Origin: Xanthomonas cissicola
GTDB taxonomy: Bacteria; Pseudomonadota; Gammaproteobacteria; Xanthomonadales; Xanthomonadaceae
NCBI RefSeq assembly: GCF_008801575.1
Contig: NZ_VZPL01000007.1
Coordinates: 62,001 to 126,000 of the forward strand
Direction: 5' to 3'
Length of the DNA stretch: 64,000 nucleotides
Shown: piece by piece, positions 11,788-56,206 of the stretch
Layout of the letters: each line of letters opens with the position of its first letter
Numbering within the stretch: position 1 is the first letter of the stretch
Made by a program: the position numbers and the translations under genes
Notes under the pieces: generated by a model
Seen by the model: only the letters and a program-made list of their open reading frames with translations
Told to the model about the DNA's origin: nothing
Database searches by the model: none

Positions 11788-12186
11788 AGATCGCCTGGCG
11801 ATGCCGATACGGATGTAGCGCGCCGTTTTGGGTGTTGCACGATGCAAGCCGGTGCCGCGTTGTGCAGCTACACGGGGAGATGGCCAGTCGCACCGCATCG
11901 GCATACGCGCGATGCGCAATAGGCCACTCGCACCATCCACACTGCGAACGACCCTTGCAGCGCAACATTGGCTGCGCGCGATTGGAATCCAGGTCGCGCA
12001 AAAAACGCAATGACGCACATAGCGCTCAGTAATGCGGTTATTTGCTATGCGCCGCTCGCGGGTTTGGCGATGCATATCACGCAACGCGGTCATCATCATG
12101 TTCCCCTATCGAAGCGATCATAACTAACGACTTCTCACGTTTCGGCCTGCTGGCGATGATTCAGCCTCCTCAAACGAGCCGACGCC
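11788..12186. other. Intergenic region upstream of the catalase
   Basis: About 400 bases holding the presumed promoter of katB. No open frame of normal composition. AT-richer stretches lie at 12010-12050 and 12100-12140. An OxyR site would be expected here but no convincing ATAG-spaced pattern could be assigned by eye. Confidence 0.5.
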
Positions 12187-13710
12187 ATGCGCCCTGGACA
12201 CCTCATGGTGCTAGCCCTGCTAGCCCCGACGTTGATCGCTCCGCCGGTCTTCGCCCAATCCGTTCTGACCCGCGACAATGGCGCCAAGGTCGGCGATAAC
12301 CAGAATTCGCAGACAGCCGGTGCCACCGGCCCGACGCTGCTGCAGGACGTGCAGCTGATACAGAAGCTGCAGCGTTTCGATCGCGAGCGCATTCCCGAGC
12401 GCGTAGTGCATGCACGCGGCACTGGCGTCAAAGGTGAGTTCACCGCCACTGCCGATCTCTCCAATCTGACCAAGGCCAAGGTATTCAGCGCCGGCGAAAA
12501 AACTCCGGTGTTCGTGCGTTTTTCGTCGGTGGTGCATGGCAACCACTCGCCGGAGACGCTGCGCGATCCGCATGGCTTCGCCACCAAGTTCTACACCAGC
12601 GAAGGCAACTGGGATCTGGTCGGCAACAACTTCCCCACGTTCTTCATTCGCGATGCGATCAAGTTCCCCGACATGGTGCATGCGTTCAAGCCGGATCCGC
12701 GCACCAATCTGGATGACGATTCGCGTCGCTTCGATTTCTTCTCGCACGTGCCCGAAGCCACGCGCACGCTGACCCTGCTGTATTCCAATGAAGGCACGCC
12801 TGCTGGCTACCGCTTCATGGACGGGAATGGCGTACATGCCTACAAGCTGGTCAACGCGCAGGGCGAAGTGCACTACGTCAAGTTCCACTGGAAGACGCTG
12901 CAGGGCATCAAGAACCTCGATCCCAAGCAGGTCGCTGCGGTGCAGGCCAAGGACTACAGCCACCTGACCAACGATCTGGTCGGTGCGATCAAGAAGGGCG
13001 ATTACCCGAAATGGGATTTGTACGTGCAGGTGCTCAAGCCGGAGGACCTGGCCAAGTTCGATTTCGACCCGCTCGACGCCACCAAGATCTGGCCGGACGT
13101 GCCGGAGCAGAAGGTCGGCCAGATGGTGTTGAACAAGAACGTCGACAACTTCTTCCAGGAAACCGAGCAGGTGGCCTTGGCGCCGGCCAATCTGGTGCCG
13201 GGTATCGAGCCGTCTGAAGACCGTCTGTTGCAGGGCCGTATTTTCTCGTACGCCGATACGCAGCTGTATCGCATCGGTGCCAATGGGCTGAGCCTGCCGG
13301 TCAATCGCCCGCGTGTGGCGGTCAACAACGGCAACCAGGATGGGCAGGGCAACATCGGTCAGACCACCAGTGGCGTGAACTACGAGCCGAGCCGCCTGGA
13401 GCCGCGTCCGCAGGACACCGCTGCGCGCTACAGCGAGCTGCCGCTGTCGGGTACGACCCAGCAGGCCAAGATCACCCGCGAACAGAACTTCAAGCAGGCC
13501 GGCGAGTTGTATCGTTCCTACAGCAAGAAGGACCGTGCCGACCTGGTGCAGAGCTTCGGCGAGTCGCTGGCCGCCACCGATACCGAAAGCAAGCACCTGA
13601 TGCTGTCGTTCCTGTACAAGGCCGACCCCGAGTACGGCACCGGCGTCACCCGCGTGGCCAAGGGCGACCTGGCACGGGTCAAGCAGCTGGCCTCCAGCCT
13701 GCAGGACTGA
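12187..13710 (+). CDS. katB: Exported monofunctional heme catalase
   Basis: Converts hydrogen peroxide to water and oxygen. 507 residues with an N-terminal signal peptide (VLALLAPTLIAPPVFAQS), so periplasmic. Distal histidine in RVVHARGTGVKGEF, distal asparagine in LVGNNFPTFFIRD, and the proximal tyrosine in RIFSYADTQLYR. These features and the small-subunit length match clade 3 catalases such as KatB of Pseudomonas and Xanthomonas. An ankyrin-repeat gene follows, as in the katB-ankB unit of P. aeruginosa, with a strong terminator between them. Peroxide induction through OxyR is likely from family knowledge but not shown here. Confidence 0.95.
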   Translation: MRPGHLMVLALLAPTLIAPPVFAQSVLTRDNGAKVGDNQNSQTAGATGPTLLQDVQLIQKLQRFDRERIPERVVHARGTGVKGEFTATADLSNLTKAKVFSAGEKTPVFVRFSSVVHGNHSPETLRDPHGFATKFYTSEGNWDLVGNNFPTFFIRDAIKFPDMVHAFKPDPRTNLDDDSRRFDFFSHVPEATRTLTLLYSNEGTPAGYRFMDGNGVHAYKLVNAQGEVHYVKFHWKTLQGIKNLDPKQVAAVQAKDYSHLTNDLVGAIKKGDYPKWDLYVQVLKPEDLAKFDFDPLDATKIWPDVPEQKVGQMVLNKNVDNFFQETEQVALAPANLVPGIEPSEDRLLQGRIFSYADTQLYRIGANGLSLPVNRPRVAVNNGNQDGQGNIGQTTSGVNYEPSRLEPRPQDTAARYSELPLSGTTQQAKITREQNFKQAGELYRSYSKKDRADLVQSFGESLAATDTESKHLMLSFLYKADPEYGTGVTRVAKGDLARVKQLASSLQD

Positions 13711-26697: not shown

Positions 26698-26829
26698 CTC
26701 GGACGCGGTTGTTGTGGTGACGAGCCAGAAGGCTAAGCGCGGCAAGGCTTTAGGCTCGCCAGCGCGTAAACCCAGCGCGTAAACTGTGGGACAAGCCGGA
26801 CACGGTTTGAGCAAGAGAAGTACGACATC

Positions 26830-26905
26830 GCCGCTTTAGCTCAGTCGGTAGAGCAACTGATTTGTAATCAGTAGGTCGTCCGTTCGATTCGGACAAGCGG
26901 CACCA
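26830..26905 (+). tRNA. tRNA-Thr (anticodon TGT), intact, inside the element
   Basis: All arms pair: GCCGCTT with AAGCGGC, GCTC/GAGC, ACTGA-TTTGTAA-TCAGT, GTCCG-TTCGATT-CGGAC, ending in encoded ACCA. Anticodon TGT reads ACA and other ACN codons by wobble. It carries the same anticodon as the tRNA gene that the insertion destroyed, so it probably replaces it (inference). Confidence 0.96.
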
Positions 26906-26915
26906 TCCCTCGTAG

Positions 26916-27077
26916 TCAGCGCCCCTTCGCGCTGCTCTTTCTGGACTTCGGCTGGAGCCCGGCCGCGCGCTGCTCCAGGCATTCGTTCCCTGGCCAGAGC
27001 GGCGTTAGGGGGCTTTGCAATTCGCGTTGCAGCAGTTGTAACCACTCGTGAGGGTAGGCTTTCAGGTCGGTAGCCAT
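26916..27077 (-). CDS. Possible 53-residue protein in the element
   Basis: Starts MATDLKAYPHEWLQLL and ends in a basic SRKSSAKGR tail; two short helices and a Trp/Pro-containing turn give it a more protein-like composition than neighbouring frames. No convincing Shine-Dalgarno sequence and no family. It lies downstream of the membrane-protein gene in the same direction, 27 bases away. Confidence 0.35.
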   Translation of the reverse strand: MATDLKAYPHEWLQLLQRELQSPLTPLWPGNECLEQRAAGLQPKSRKSSAKGR

Positions 27078-27103
27078 GGCCAAGCGAAAATGTAGAGGCG
27101 GCT

Positions 27104-27436
27104 TTAGTTAGCAGCCTTTCGTCGGACTGACAGAAAAGTGAACGTCGCCAAGAAGTGGATCACCGGGAACAGGGTCACGTAGATGTCGGCCCCTGGACCA
27201 AGACGCAGGCGATGGGGAACGAACCCCAAGCCACATGCGGCCAGACCGGAAAGAACGACAATGCCAGTAAGTGTGGTTCTGACTTGGGCACTGAACGCAT
27301 TGAGGTACATGGCCAGGAACCACAATGCGCCGAACACGCCATACACGAGGATTTCTTGATCCTTCGTGTAAAGGAAGATCTGGGCGAGGTAGAGCGCCAG
27401 GGATAGCAATAGAGCGATGGGAGCCAGCGCTTTCAT
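27104..27436 (-). CDS. Four-helix membrane protein, third gene of the island operon
   Basis: 110 residues with four predicted membrane helices (about 4-22, 30-46, 55-72, 82-99) and a basic C-terminus (SVRRKAAN). No recognised family. Its ATG overlaps the stop of the Rhs-core gene (ATGA), so its translation is coupled to that gene. Sitting directly after a candidate polymorphic toxin, and being small and membrane-bound, it is a candidate immunity protein; this is inference from position only. Confidence 0.7.
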   Translation of the reverse strand: MKALAPIALLLSLALYLAQIFLYTKDQEILVYGVFGALWFLAMYLNAFSAQVRTTLTGIVVLSGLAACGLGFVPHRLRLGPGADIYVTLFPVIHFLATFTFLSVRRKAAN

Positions 27437-28149
27437 GGCTGCTGGGTCCTCCGCGTGATCTCTTCCGCACTCTGAGACCACACTTCCCTGGACTGGTTGT
27501 TCTTGGGGTCAAAGGCGCGTTGCAGGAAAGAGTCACCCTCGCCATACGTAATGATGTTCTGGGCACCGCCAGCTCCGGACTCCGTCGTTCGCAGCACGAT
27601 GCCCCAGGTCGCGGCATGGTCGCCGGTCGTGACATTCAACACTGCATTGCCGCCGTTTTGGAGCGGTACTTGGTACGACATCACGTTGTCCTGTCCCGTG
27701 AACCTGCTGATCGCGTTGTTAGCGTTCACGTCGATCTTGTTGCCCTGCAAAGTGGCGGGCTGGTTCTGCATGGGGGTTGGGTTGTTGACTAACTGATTGT
27801 TCAACCGCTGGCCATAAGGGGCATCACCACTACCGGCCGAATCAGAGAAACGGTAGACGTGGTGGAAGGTGGAATCCTGCGGGCTGATACTCGCGGGAAA
27901 ACCTTCTGGCCTCGGGAAGTTCACGGTGGGCAAGCCGCCGCCAATCGGCACCAACTGGCAGGTGTTGCCGGCGCACTTAATATCGCGGCCATCGGGGTCA
28001 ACGAACTTGTAGGGGTTGTTCGCTGCGTAGGAGTAGCGATTGAAGCTGGCACCCGTGTTCGGATTAGCCTTCACGGGATCGGTCGAGGCATGAGCGGTGG
28101 TAGCCACCAATGCTATCGACAGCACACTACCCGTCAGAATTGCGCGCAT
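27433..28149 (-). CDS. Secreted orphan Rhs-core protein with unknown C-terminal domain
   Basis: 238 residues. Signal peptide MRAILTGSVLSIALVATTAHA, then the very end of an Rhs-associated core (NRYSYAANNPYKFVDPDGRD, residues 38-57), the junction after which Rhs proteins change to variable C-terminal toxins. The remaining 180 residues (C59/C64 pair, VNFPRPEGFPA, NVTTGDHAATWGIVLRTTE) match no fold I recognise. All YD repeats are absent and the protein has its own export signal, so it is not a simple 3' fragment of a large Rhs gene. Start overlaps the upstream stop (TGATG); stop overlaps the next start (ATGA). Confidence 0.75.
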   Translation of the reverse strand: MRAILTGSVLSIALVATTAHASTDPVKANPNTGASFNRYSYAANNPYKFVDPDGRDIKCAGNTCQLVPIGGGLPTVNFPRPEGFPASISPQDSTFHHVYRFSDSAGSGDAPYGQRLNNQLVNNPTPMQNQPATLQGNKIDVNANNAISRFTGQDNVMSYQVPLQNGGNAVLNVTTGDHAATWGIVLRTTESGAGGAQNIITYGEGDSFLQRAFDPKNNQSREVWSQSAEEITRRTQQP

Positions 28150-29168
28150 CACGATCCCGCTTGGCCCTTGTCTTTCATGTTGTTGAAGTGGTGCAAGTAG
28201 CGCTGCCTTTCCGCCGGTCCCCACTGACGCCAGCCCAAGGACTCGGCCTTTTCGTACCAGGCCAAGTTTTGCTTACTGTAATCCAGATACTCGGCGCGAA
28301 GCTCCAAAGGTATCTGTTCTGCCTTCGGATACTTAGCCTTGAACCGCTGTTCGATGAGCAGGTAGTACGCATCCCCACGAAATGTCATTGCGTTGACATC
28401 CTTAGGGTTGACTGCAAGGACCAGGTCGCTCGCCGCAAACATGCGTTCGGCCTGCTTCATCTCCCGGTAGTGGGGCAATAGGGAAGCGGTTGCAAACAGG
28501 GCCACCGTTTCCCGTTGCGAGAAAGGGCGGAGGAACGTGTCGTTGCGCGTCGCCTCGGGTGGAATGCTCATGGCCTGTTCGTAGCCACTATCCGGATGGA
28601 ACAAGGCACTGGTGGCCTCGAAATTCGTCCACTGGCCCTGTTCTTCGTCGCCGTATTTGACGATCAAGTGATACGGCGCCGTGGTCATGGTCAATGGCAA
28701 GCCCAGCCGCTGGCCGATGACCAAGAAGGCGATCGGCATGATGACGCACTGGCCCTTGCGGGTGGCGAAGTAGTGCGACAGCAAGCCCTTCTTTACGTCT
28801 TGGCCGAACGGGTCGGTGTAGTCGTAGCCGAATGGTCGATGGTCATTCCAAGGACCCGGCTCGTAGAGTGTCGAAATGAGCAGGTTCATCTTGACCTTGT
28901 TCGACGCACCGGCTGGAAACCTGGCCCGCGCCTTCGCTGCCCACTGATCGACCTCGCGCAACGTAGCGTCAGGGTCGATGGAAGGATCAATCATTCGGTC
29001 GATCGCGACCTTGGCGCTTGCCAAATCGATAGAACCTTCTGGCTGCAGCAGCAGGAGGCGTAGCGTTGTTTCCTGGGGAGTGGACGTGGTCGCCCAGGCT
29101 GATGCAGCCATGAGCGCCAGGCACAGGCCCAGCACCCTTACGAATCGCCAGCAGACATTTCGCCCCAT
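28149..29168 (-). CDS. Exported transglutaminase-like protein
   Basis: 339 residues. Signal peptide (VLGLCLALMAASAWA), then a SirB1/transglutaminase-like core: ATRKGQC with the candidate nucleophile C141, APYHLIVKYG with H167, and TNFEATS with E184, in the family order Cys-His-acid. A TPR-like helical tail follows (MKQAERMFAASDLVLAVNPKD). It could be an amidase/protease or a structural member of the fold. Strong AAGGAGGGG ribosome site; first gene of the three-gene operon, 46 bases after the integrase remnant. Confidence 0.75.
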   Translation of the reverse strand: MGRNVCWRFVRVLGLCLALMAASAWATTSTPQETTLRLLLLQPEGSIDLASAKVAIDRMIDPSIDPDATLREVDQWAAKARARFPAGASNKVKMNLLISTLYEPGPWNDHRPFGYDYTDPFGQDVKKGLLSHYFATRKGQCVIMPIAFLVIGQRLGLPLTMTTAPYHLIVKYGDEEQGQWTNFEATSALFHPDSGYEQAMSIPPEATRNDTFLRPFSQRETVALFATASLLPHYREMKQAERMFAASDLVLAVNPKDVNAMTFRGDAYYLLIEQRFKAKYPKAEQIPLELRAEYLDYSKQNLAWYEKAESLGWRQWGPAERQRYLHHFNNMKDKGQAGS

Positions 29169-29214
29169 CGCCCCTCCTTGACGAACTCACTGTATCTCTA
29201 GTCACTGGCTCGCT

Positions 29215-30174
29215 CTAGAGGGAGCCATCGCTGCCGTGGCCGTAAGTAGTCGTTGTTCCTGACTTGTTCGGCCTTAATAAGTTCATCAGGTAGGGCGTCT
29301 TGCGTCTCACGTCGTCGGCGTTCGTCTCGCGGTGCGCCAGTAGGTCGGAGAGCGCCGACGACAGCGGCAGGTCGAACTTCTTGGCGCTGCCGCCCTTGGG
29401 GTTCGGGACGTGAAGACAATCCTCGCCGAGGTTCGCGCGCTTCGCCTCGCATGAGGCCGTCCGGCGCATGCCCGACAGCAGCATGAAAAGTTGCAGGTCA
29501 CGGCGAACAGGGTTGCCCAGCGACAGCACCGCCTTGCCCCAAGCTCTGAGCTTCTCGGGACTGGCGTCTACCTCGCGTCGGCGTATCCCGTTCATGTCCA
29601 CGTTGCCTATGGGGTTGGGTGGCAGGTCCGGGAACTGCCGCAGGGCACGGTTGTAGACTGAACGCAGCACCCGCATGGTGTTGTCGCCCGAGGTGGCGCC
29701 ACTCCTCTCGGTGATCCGACGGTGACGTTCGCGCACGCCCTGACGATCAGCACCGATTTCGGCCAGTGGCTTGTCGAGCCAGCCTTTGAGGTAGTAGGTG
29801 ACGTGGTACTCGTAACCGCTGCGGGTCTTGTCGGCCAGCCGCCGAGAGTTCAGATGCAGATCTAACCCCTCACGCAGGGTGATGCCTCGCGCCCGGGCCT
29901 TGCGTCGCTCCTGGTTCGGGTTGGTGCCGCCCCGCATGCCGACCAGCGTCTGCCGGGCGGCATCGCGGGCCTGCTTGGCGTCCATCGCTGGATGGTCGCC
30001 AAGCTTCGTCTTGAGTTGACGCCCGTTGACGAGGGACTGGACGTAGAAGCTGCGCTTGGTGGGGGTGACTATGAGATAAAACCCCCTCATCTCGGTGTCG
30101 GCGTACAGGACCGACTTGCCCGGCTCGGGCCGGGTTGCCCTCTCGACGAGGGACTGGGTGATCTTCGACTTCAT
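29215..30174 (-). pseudogene. Tyrosine integrase lacking its C-terminal catalytic end
   Basis: 319 residues from the ATG that begins MKSKITQSLVE. The N-terminal DUF4102-like arm-binding part (ADTEMRGFYLIVTPTKRSFYVQ), core-binding domain (LRVLRSVYNRALR) and first catalytic arginine (LLSGMRRT, about 235) plus the PKGGSAKKFDLPLS beta hairpin with its lysine are visible. The H-x-x-R and final tyrosine segments expected in the next 80-100 residues are missing; the frame stops and another gene starts 46 bases later. It therefore appears inactive. It lies next to the right att site, as usual for tRNA-integrating elements. Confidence 0.85.
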
Positions 30175-30344
30175 GTTGGCTCCAGGTAACGGGGCCACGG
30201 CTCGGACACGATTTCGCACCACAAGGTGCCGTGTTCAGACATGCCGTTTGTGCACCTGAAGCCTCATTAAGTCGCGGTTTTTCCTCAGTGTAAGCGGCCT
30301 CAGACCATCCGATTTCAAATCATGGCACGCTGTCCGCATGCCGA

Positions 30345-30389
30345 CTTGTAAGCATTAGGTCCCCAGTTCGAATCCGGGTGTCGGCACCA
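30345..30389 (+). pseudogene. 3' half of the split tRNA-Thr and right att site
   Basis: Begins with the anticodon loop CTTGTAA, then GCATT, AGGTC, the T-arm CCCAG-TTCGAAT-CCGGG and acceptor TGTCGGC-ACCA. The acceptor pairs with the 5' half at 26660. The 3' anticodon stem GCATT does not fully pair with ACCGC of the 5' half, so it has drifted or derives from the element. Confidence 0.82.
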
Positions 30390-30692
30390 TCTTCGATCCA
30401 TGCAGACGTGGCAATCACGGTCGACGTTGCTGCAGCCCGAGCACGCGATGCGGTGTGGGATTTGCATCAACTCATTGCCAAGCACGATGGCGCGTTGCTT
30501 GCCGCCATCTGTCCCAACAGACGGTAGCGTGCTCAGCGTTGTGTGAGCGGGCGTATGCGTCGCACTCCGATTCCGAGCGCGCTACCCATGCTCGCCTGAA
30601 GGCTGCTCGCATCGTTTTGGTAGCCGCTTCAAGTGGCTCGCACCATGTCACGTACATCGCGCGATGTTGATCGCGCGATGCGAGGTGCAGCA
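30390..30692. other. Spacer between the island junction and tmk
   Basis: About 300 bases, no credible gene or RNA. Frames here are short and of shadow composition. Confidence 0.5.
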
Positions 30693-54930: not shown

Positions 54931-55161
54931 GGCTGGCTCCGGTCTTGGGTCTGGAACGGCGTACGTACTGTCGCATGGCGACGGCTTGGTCGCCGCAGCC
55001 AAGCACGCCGGTGCCGCATCATCCGGAAGAGGCTGCCTTGGGCGTGTGACGGAACGCGGAGGTGGGGAGGCGTCAGCGCGACGCACACATACCGCTGCAG
55101 CTATGAACGAAGCGCAATCGATGTGGTGCTAGTCCACACCAGCGCACAGGCCTGGAGGCTC

Positions 55162-55740
55162 TCAAATAGATGCCAGGAGTTTTTGTTGTTGCTGGTTGGC
55201 CTTGTGATGGAGAGCCAAGCTGTAGAGCAGTTCTGGGTTGGTGGTTCTCACCAGTCCGAAGGTGTCACGGATGACGCGGTCAATGCGCGGGCCGCCTCCA
55301 CCAAGGATGGCCGCAGCTAGCGCCGGGACGATCAATTCAAGCAGCTCCGGAAGATGGGAAACGCGGCGCGCAAGTGCCTGCAGAGCATGCGCTCGTCGAA
55401 GATTGTGTGGCTCAGTTTCTGCAATGCCAAGTAGCTGACGAATCACATCTGCAGCCTGCGCCAGCGATCCTTCGGCCATCACGGCGACCGGCCAGGAGGC
55501 AACCGTCACGATGCGATTCGGTTCGCTTTGTTCGTGCGCAGCCTCAATCGCTGCTTTGAGAAGGGCAGTGCGTTTGGCGCCAGAGGAGAATTCAGCGGCA
55601 CGCGACAGCGCCTGGCACCGGTACCAGGGATGCTTGATTTTTCGAGCGATCATGGCAGCGCCATCAGGGTCGTCAGGCGCCATGGCGAAGACGCGCCCCC
55701 GTCCATGTATATCGGCCGTTGTAATAGGTAAGTCACTCAT
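55162..55740 (-). CDS. Alpha-helical repeat (HEAT/TPR-like) protein, unknown function
   Basis: 192 residues, cytosolic, no signal. At least three helical-pair units of 30-35 residues: KIKHPWYRCQALSRAAEF, ALLKAAIEAAHEQSEPNRIV, VIRQLLGIAETEPHNLRRAH and LPELLELIVPALAAAIL, consistent with HEAT-like scaffolds. No catalytic residues. Base composition is lower in GC than neighbours by eye, and the following gene is a pseudogene, so the block may be an acquired or decaying region. Confidence 0.65.
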   Translation of the reverse strand: MSDLPITTADIHGRGRVFAMAPDDPDGAAMIARKIKHPWYRCQALSRAAEFSSGAKRTALLKAAIEAAHEQSEPNRIVTVASWPVAVMAEGSLAQAADVIRQLLGIAETEPHNLRRAHALQALARRVSHLPELLELIVPALAAAILGGGGPRIDRVIRDTFGLVRTTNPELLYSLALHHKANQQQQKLLASI

Positions 55741-55864
55741 CGAGATCGGATGCCTTGATCAGTCAAGCGATGCTGCGGGCGACAGAGTTTCGCTCATCCG
55801 CCTCTCTTCATTGCGTATTTTCGCTGCGAAGCGGCGAAAACGATCAATCGAACATCGTCAGTGG

Positions 55865-56206
55865 TTACTTGACCAACTGATCAAACTCAGGGCGATAATG
55901 ATGTTCGTGCGGTGTGGGGACCACGGTTGTCGCTCGGGTGAAACCCATCGCCTGCAATGCAGCTTAAAACTGTGCGAGAGGGCTGTAGGCAAACAACTGG
56001 TTATGGCGGTCCCATACCACCGTCGCTTGGCTAGTCGGCAAATGCGCCCATAGGTCATAGCGCGCATCTGCGGAAAGAAATGCGCCAAACCATGATCAGA
56101 ACGCTTTGACGTCGAAGCGTTCCAGCGCAGGACTTTGGTAGCGGCCTGGTTCTGCCTCGCCCCGCGACATGTAGAAGAGATACAGCAAGTAGTACGGCGG
56201 CTCCAT
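55865..56206 (-). pseudogene. Dead hypothetical gene with two in-frame stop codons
   Basis: One reading frame from the ATG at 56206 (MEPPYYLLYLFYMSRGEAE...) stays protein-like through two nonsense codons: TGA at 56096-56098 and TAA at 55964-55966, and ends at 55865. The later parts read SWFGAFLSADARYDLWAHL, PTSQATVVWDRHNQLFAY and PTPHEHHYRPEFDQLVK. This matches a xanthomonad hypothetical protein family from memory. Without frame shifts but with two stops, it is a recent pseudogene of 114 codons. Confidence 0.85.

Follow-up and report, generated by a model that had tools for sequence, protein, structure and literature searches.

Background

In the current understanding, an Rhs toxin depends on a large shell that both houses the toxin and releases it by cutting. 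In Rhs proteins of the type VI secretion system (T6SS), two aspartates (D1324 and D1346 in RhsA) release the toxin and cutting is required for toxicity, according to the available portions of two reports (PMC8765631, PMC8636562), and an excerpt on a teneurin-like protein describes an extra conserved arginine outside the cleavage motif (PMC13018210). The subject of this study is a three-gene module in a 64,000-nucleotide stretch of Xanthomonas cissicola (assembly GCF_008801575.1, contig NZ_VZPL01000007.1, positions 62,001 to 126,000; hereafter the window), which encodes a transglutaminase-like protein (TGL), a small protein carrying only the end of an Rhs core behind a predicted signal peptide (mini-Rhs), and a small membrane protein (P0003). 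We consider it fairly probable that this is a Sec-exported polymorphic toxin-immunity module derived by splitting Rhs, in which TGL would act in trans on the Rhs-derived tag; the module is classed here with polymorphic toxins rather than with Rhs proper because the shell is absent.

Neisseria carries the MafA/MafB system, of which we take MafI to be a further member. As outlined in the relevant portions of PMC3482391, this system works alike, with a constant exported partner upstream of a signal-peptide toxin that has a conserved N-terminal part and a polymorphic C-terminus, but it differs in its MafB-N/DUF1020 domain and its lipobox-bearing MafA, and is restricted to Neisseria in those portions. 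The same source (Zhang 2012, PMC3482391) describes, in the part available, Rhs proteins in which a transglutaminase fold, a signal peptide and Rhs occur together; there the transglutaminase is fused N-terminally to the Rhs repeats and has lost its catalytic residues, whereas TGL is a separate gene product that keeps Cys, His and Glu. Self-cleaving Rhs and TcC toxins, as presented in the accessible sections of PMC8636562 and PMC8765631, share the DP..DPxG core end, the variable C-terminal toxin and the adjoining partner gene; mini-Rhs, unlike them, has no YD-repeat shell and no T6SS or Tc parts, and comes with its own signal peptide and a separate TGL. The orphan or displaced Rhs tips of PMC2935791 also combine a core fragment with a tip and undergo cassette displacement, but in what is accessible of that account they are fragments downstream of a full rhs gene and mostly startless, whereas mini-Rhs has a signal peptide, a start and TGL. 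Within the open literature (subscription papers and preprints were outside its scope) we found no description of a separate active-looking enzyme paired with a signal-peptide mini-Rhs; the one closely relevant work, judged from the portion available, is that on inactive transglutaminase domains fused to Rhs repeats (PMC3482391), and PMC13274458 was set aside as a prior description since it merely lists two separate mutated genes.

A predicted exported transglutaminase-like protein and a minimal Rhs tag

The genes for TGL, mini-Rhs and P0003 all lie on the minus strand and overlap by 1 base (TGATG) and 4 bases (ATGA), confirming in coordinates and strand the overlapping operon of the preliminary description, and the operon occurs once in its own genome. 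Mini-Rhs matches the NCBIfam model TIGR03696 (Rhs_assc_core) over residues 21–54 with 28.4 bits, below the cut-off of 32.5, and has no Pfam match at all, hence neither RHS_repeat nor MafB-N/DUF1020. A PAAR domain or other T6SS N-terminal part is likewise absent, the tag coming straight after the signal peptide, so that the earlier account of an Rhs-core end with its own signal peptide and no YD repeats holds. Signal peptides were called here and below by a crude rule together with A-x-A sites judged by eye, and transmembrane (TM) segments by a Kyte-Doolittle rule.

An alignment of 55 mini-Rhs from 51 loci, hand-picked for a clean frame (leaving out L117, L123, L126, L127, L151, L153, L156, L157, L162 and the opposite-strand L124, L145 and L154), could be made over the signal peptide and tag only. 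Within the tag, Y41, P46, D51 and G54 are invariant and D24, P25, Y39 and P52 are conserved in at least 90% of the sequences; TIGR03696, a model independent of these sequences, matches 53 of the 55, and RHS_repeat, the mark of a YD-repeat shell, is not among the Pfam families that match them. Mini-Rhs retains only the end of the Rhs core (the plug plus the DPxG cleavage segment, about 35 residues) as a tag behind its predicted signal peptide, followed by an exchangeable domain that we posit to be the toxin.

TGL matches Pfam Transglut_core2 (PF13369) with 38.6 bits against a gathering cut-off of 23.5. Across 55 aligned TGL sequences (P0001, the window's own, plus 54 of 56 TGL frames, L148 and L164 being left out for truncation or weakness) every sequence has Cys141 and His167, and at least 90% have Glu184. 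The Cys-His-Glu triad of an active transglutaminase-fold enzyme, pointed out in the preliminary description, is present, and TGL is predicted to be active. TGL shares its Pfam domain and a TPR-like C-terminal part with SirB1, and a search of solved structures with the TGL profile returned essentially TPR proteins. It differs from SirB1 in its predicted export and in having the catalytic Cys where the one SirB1-like paralogue of the genus examined (L215) has GNP; the NCBI SirB1 equivalog model is not reached (23.6 bits against a cut-off of 391). LapG-type proteins are periplasmic transglutaminase-like proteases that act on a secreted protein. The likeness to TGL is one of analogy only; the Pfam match of TGL is to Transglut_core2 alone and the substrate is another.

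TGL would be the constant exported Cys-His-Glu partner that acts in trans on the tag. Its likeliest reaction would be proteolysis at or near the DPxG junction, replacing the lost self-cleaving Rhs shell, with covalent docking of the tag as a close alternative.

Association of TGL with Rhs core ends

Loci were collected through TGL alone, 61 from a collection with one genome per species and five from viral contigs. Of these 66 loci, 61 carry an Rhs core end no more than 2.3 kb from TGL (in a single case a weak one), as scored with a core model built, both here and in the control counts below, from mini-Rhs of the same loci, TIGR03696 serving as the independent check. Gene order around TGL, a comparison named beforehand in the preliminary description, is not random. 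The core end is downstream on the same strand in 51 loci, in 48 of which it is located between −3 and +78 bp relative to the TGL stop; with L135 and L138, assigned by coordinates because their TGL frame is broken, 50 count as directly downstream, and the core end of L162, at +361, is degenerate. In seven loci it lies upstream on the same strand (L126, L137, L144, L147, L150, L151, L156) and in three on the opposite strand (L124, L145 and L154, the last weak at E 0.004). Of the 61 core-end loci, 56 have a called signal peptide, the exceptions being L117, L126, L145, L151 and L162. Second mini-Rhs or core ends occur at L105, L118, L130, L153 and L167; beyond these, the flanks hold one weak core match, 5.9 kb off on the opposite strand in L106 (E 0.005).

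Rhs cores match in at least 83 of 149 genomes of the family; 12 of the 149 together contain 14 sites with a strong TGL match (E no higher than 3.9e-54). As a control we sampled 53 Rhs loci of the genus and the family, 40 of which were picked for this use. They contain 82 core ends, of which 74 had no signal peptide, two had a weak one (L104, L197) and six were classed as signal-peptide mini-Rhs; inspection of the sequences by eye led us to regard L104, L197 and one of the six, L183, as conventional. The five accepted (L171–L175) are all in TGL-encoding genomes (G107, G133, G157), and L174 and L175 adjoin TGL. The frequency of the association, together with the lack of a signal peptide on most other Rhs fragments, rules out chance neighbours or random Rhs debris.

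Exchange of C-terminal domains and partner genes

The C-terminal domains of the 55 mini-Rhs fall into 31 groups. Pfam matches among them (E<=0.01) comprise Peptidase_M91 (three), NLPC_P60 (two) and single matches to CDI_toxin_EC869_like, Peptidase_C14, Lnb_N, DUF6288, Zn_peptidase_2 and DUF7289. Mapped on 28 rows of the TGL tree, the C-terminal type, with 10 states, requires a minimum of 16 switches. Compared with L021 (88%), L106, L146, L105, L107 and L120, the window operon loses DNA homology at mini-Rhs codons 53–56, and in all six relatives this breakpoint is the DPDG boundary. Tandem mini-Rhs pairs with different C-terminal types behind a single TGL were also seen, at L105, L118, L130 and L167.

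It could be argued that the tag cleaves itself, or that it is a mere recombination arm for toxin cassettes, with TGL otherwise employed, for instance as a chaperone or second effector. Both aspartate positions of Rhs self-cleavage are mostly retained, breakpoints exactly at the tag end are what a recombination arm would produce, and the tag type resembles the Rhs proteins of the host lineage. However, mini-Rhs lacks the portion of the Rhs aspartyl protease that the shell contributes, and a recombination arm alone leaves the conservation of TGL across loci unexplained. Moreover, both mini-Rhs of L130 are without the first Asp-Pro yet stand behind TGL, which weakens the notion that the tag aspartates suffice for self-cleavage and leads us to favour trans-action by TGL; we hold the self-cleaving or recombination-arm explanation to be quite unlikely.

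The gene after mini-Rhs would encode the matching immunity protein, in the window one with four TM segments. Partners were taken as the top-ranked downstream open reading frame (ORF), by a ranking that favours signal peptides and TM segments and returned none in 5 of 55 cases, and with this definition the partner class agrees in 33 of 44 pairs of the same C-terminal type (shuffled mean 10.97; none of 10000 shuffles as high). Partner homology was found in 16 of the 44 same-type pairs versus 1 of 1181 other pairs. The 50 partners comprise 16 with a signal peptide or one TM segment, 14 multi-TM proteins, eight lipoproteins and 12 with no export signal, suggesting that the site of action is probably the envelope for some toxins and the cytoplasm for others.

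P0003 has four hydrophobic segments, in keeping with the four-helix membrane protein first proposed, and no family above cut-off in Pfam, NCBIfam or PADLOC. The proposed pairing with a membrane protein recurs: all five loci of the window's C-terminal type (the window, L106, L021, L121 and L144) continue with a four-predicted-TM protein, which in L021 is separated from mini-Rhs by an inserted transposase gene and was entered by hand as the partner. Among these four-TM proteins, those of L144 and L021 belong to a single family with that of L106, to which they show 54 and 69% identity. Remnants of the start of P0003 persist just before the tRNA in L021 (residues 6–24, 74%) and L027 (residues 7–24, 83%), downstream of a different multi-TM gene, which is what cassette displacement of a toxin-immunity pair would leave, as in the Rhs tips treated in the available part of PMC2935791.

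Split Rhs loci in rhizobia

On two rhizobial plasmids TGL follows a large protein annotated as TcdB-mid/N, with RHS_repeat and TcdB_toxin_midN matches. Five rhizobial loci (L226, L227, L228, L140, L141) share the order shell end, TGL, tag: the shell closes with GERFD.ETGL.YLNARY[YM]DP..GRF[VIL]P and a short tail immediately ahead of TGL, the shell ORF being open over only the last 158 codons in L228 and open at the locus end in L140 and L141, while in the mini-Rhs behind TGL the stretch that comes after the signal peptide opens with [RK]F[IV]SPD and extends to NG. A 1127-codon ORF of Sinorhizobium chiapasense, and shorter ones of R. etli Mim1, Rhizobium NXC14 and Shinella, contain the shell-end and tag stretches continuously in one frame, and no TGL was found in the examined stretches around these continuous ORFs. 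Five plasmid records match TGL, and the split arrangement is present in three of the four examined. In Sinorhizobium RAC02 a TGL piece and an Rhs tag share a single ORF (L253:4590-5354, plus strand), apparently a decayed module.

These loci suggest, tentatively, that the module is a naturally split Rhs, with separate exported shell and tag-toxin and with TGL processing or joining the tag in trans, which would have become shell-free in most lineages and now provide a minimal, portable form of toxin maturation across phyla, phages and plasmids. No shell-only Rhs gene was found in the window's genome, where the Rhs on contigs C9 and C120 have their own core ends and that on C62 ends at the contig edge. 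The C120 protein (L247:2331-5978, minus strand) is a 1215-residue Rhs with a predicted signal peptide, a complete contiguous core and its own C-terminal domain, and is a possible shell partner or source of tags.

The rhizobial arrangement also bears on whether TGL, within the same toxin-immunity module, joins rather than cuts, attaching the tagged toxin covalently to the shell, an envelope protein or peptidoglycan in the manner of a transglutaminase or sortase for surface display. A transglutaminase fold with Cys-His-Glu suits such chemistry, and joining would make sense where shell and tag-toxin are separate with the TGL gene between them. Most TGL loci, however, have no shell gene next door and there is no known acceptor, and we prefer cutting because the tag, which immediately precedes the candidate toxin domain, terminates where Rhs proteins are known to be cut; joining therefore appears unlikely to us.

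Several observations weigh against a toxin-immunity module processed by TGL. Five TGL loci have no core end, of which L148 and L161 are near contig ends and L163, L164 and L165 are partial or weak TGL matches. The 17-kb TGL locus of G157 contains no Rhs gene or core end; conversely, the mini-Rhs L171–L173 are not beside TGL, and plasmid pA of S. chiapasense carries, behind a truncated shell, a mini-Rhs with a signal peptide, and TGL has no match on this plasmid. The majority of C-terminal domains, including that of the window, have no Pfam family match, and a sequence search of solved structures gave nothing significant for the window's domain. Finally, hhalign detected no homology between P0003 and the four-TM proteins beside related C-terminal domains, and its membership of the L106/L144/L021 family was not detected (probability 0.1%). 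The toxin/immunity module proposed in the preliminary description is supported in part, by the recognised toxin or hydrolase domains that some other members carry and by the co-variation of partner genes, with P0003 itself kept as a candidate immunity protein by position and topology.

Distribution and mobile elements

Carriers include Lysobacterales, Methylovorus, Chitinimonas, Paracidovorax, Ramlibacter, Rhizobacter and Mesorhizobium, beta- and alphaproteobacteria among them, as well as metagenome-assembled genomes labelled Bacteroidia, Rhodothermia, Zixibacteria and Myxococcales, whose labels may be wrong, as L145, labelled Eremiobacteraeota, groups with Rhodanobacter/Frateuria on the TGL tree. 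The 149-genome family set and the one-per-species collection overlap; among 398 genomes of the phylum, a sample with less bias, TGL (E<=1e-35) occurs in four: the window's own, G050, G236 and G448. G236 has TGL twice, in both cases ahead of a signal-peptide mini-Rhs and another small gene, and the G448 copy is broken, with no core end in the stretch examined. At one locus (L085:2405-7144, minus strand) a 1579-residue signal-peptide Rhs adjoins a TGL/mini-Rhs pair on the opposite strand; it has a possible Tlde1 C-terminal domain (25.3 bits, below the 30.1 cut-off). The five viral contigs (L166–L170) carry terminase genes (L168, L170), a phage primase (L169) and an integrase (L166), and INPHARED phage records gave no match to the module.

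Competition systems characteristically show repeated exchange of toxin and partner. The module may nonetheless serve conflict between phages or other elements (defence, superinfection exclusion or an addiction-like role) rather than competition, a role to which the copies on viral contigs and plasmids and the accessory nature of the window copy would be suited. Yet none of the three window proteins matches a PADLOC model (E up to 1), which disposes of a known anti-phage defence system; there is no apparent trigger, and the swapping fits competition, in which the toxin may be delivered to other cells. An element-conflict role is, in our judgement, improbable.

Genomic site

The module occupies an accessory segment (Table 1). 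In G016, G008 and G027, whose flanks are 95–97% identical, the SPOR-like gene and tmk are ~340 bp apart and window positions 26698–30691 are absent. Strong TGL matches occur in 4 of 35 genomes of the genus, and a weak SirB1-like match in all 35. The tRNA-Thr with its flank has a full match in only 6 of the 35, so this tRNA copy appears to be accessory. G023 has the module between the SPOR-like gene and tmk in the opposite orientation, and L021 and L027, from two genomes of the genus, share the site next to the SPOR-like gene; TGL is frame-broken in the former and N-terminally truncated in the latter, and in L021 the conserved TGL stretch begins 49 bp from the tmk match and the integrase ORF is absent. 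The earlier suggestion of a tRNA island stands as regards the tRNA-Thr and a 49-bp repeat; an ordinary intact island is weakened by the fragment-like integrase, by the L021 module at the same site without integrase, and by the absence of the tRNA along with the segment. The GC content of the module is 0.55–0.59 versus 0.65 for the whole window (27–29 kb, 0.575); other low-GC stretches lie at 12001–13000 (0.591) and 55001–56000 (0.583).

Table 1. Features of the module and its surroundings in the window
Feature	Position	Strand	Basis or remark
Accessory segment	26698..30691	.	Missing from G016, G008 and G027
tRNA-Thr (tgt)	26830..26905	+	Itself within the accessory segment
P0003, 110 aa, four predicted TM segments, candidate immunity protein	27104..27436	-	Position and topology only
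mini-Rhs (P0002), 238 aa: signal peptide, Rhs core end, variable C-terminal domain	27433..28149	-	
mini-Rhs variable C-terminal domain, residues 56-238, candidate toxin	27436..27984	-	Kin: L106, L021, L121, L144
Rhs core-end tag, residues 22-55 (DP...FNRYSYAANNPYKFVDPDGR)	27985..28086	-	TIGR03696, conserved columns, DNA-homology breakpoints
mini-Rhs predicted signal peptide, residues 1-21 (AHA|S)	28087..28149	-	Sequence and crude rule
TGL (P0001), predicted exported transglutaminase-like protein, Transglut_core2, 339 aa	28149..29168	-	Predicted signal peptide 1-26; catalytic-type Cys141/His167/Glu184; TPR-like C-terminal part
Integrase ORF, probably a fragment	29215..30174	-	Pfam, Arm-DNA-bind_3 match only
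tRNA 3'-half-like repeat, possible attachment-site relic	30343..30391	+	73% identical to 26859-26907

Implications

If true, a split of this kind would show how far the Rhs platform can shrink, and how a self-processing protein may be divided into an enzyme and its substrate. The combination of signal peptide, core-end tag and neighbouring TGL would provide a simple handle for finding unrecognised toxin and immunity families, and the rhizobial loci, in which shell, TGL and tag-toxin are each encoded by their own gene, would offer a ready natural experiment on the action of TGL on the tag.

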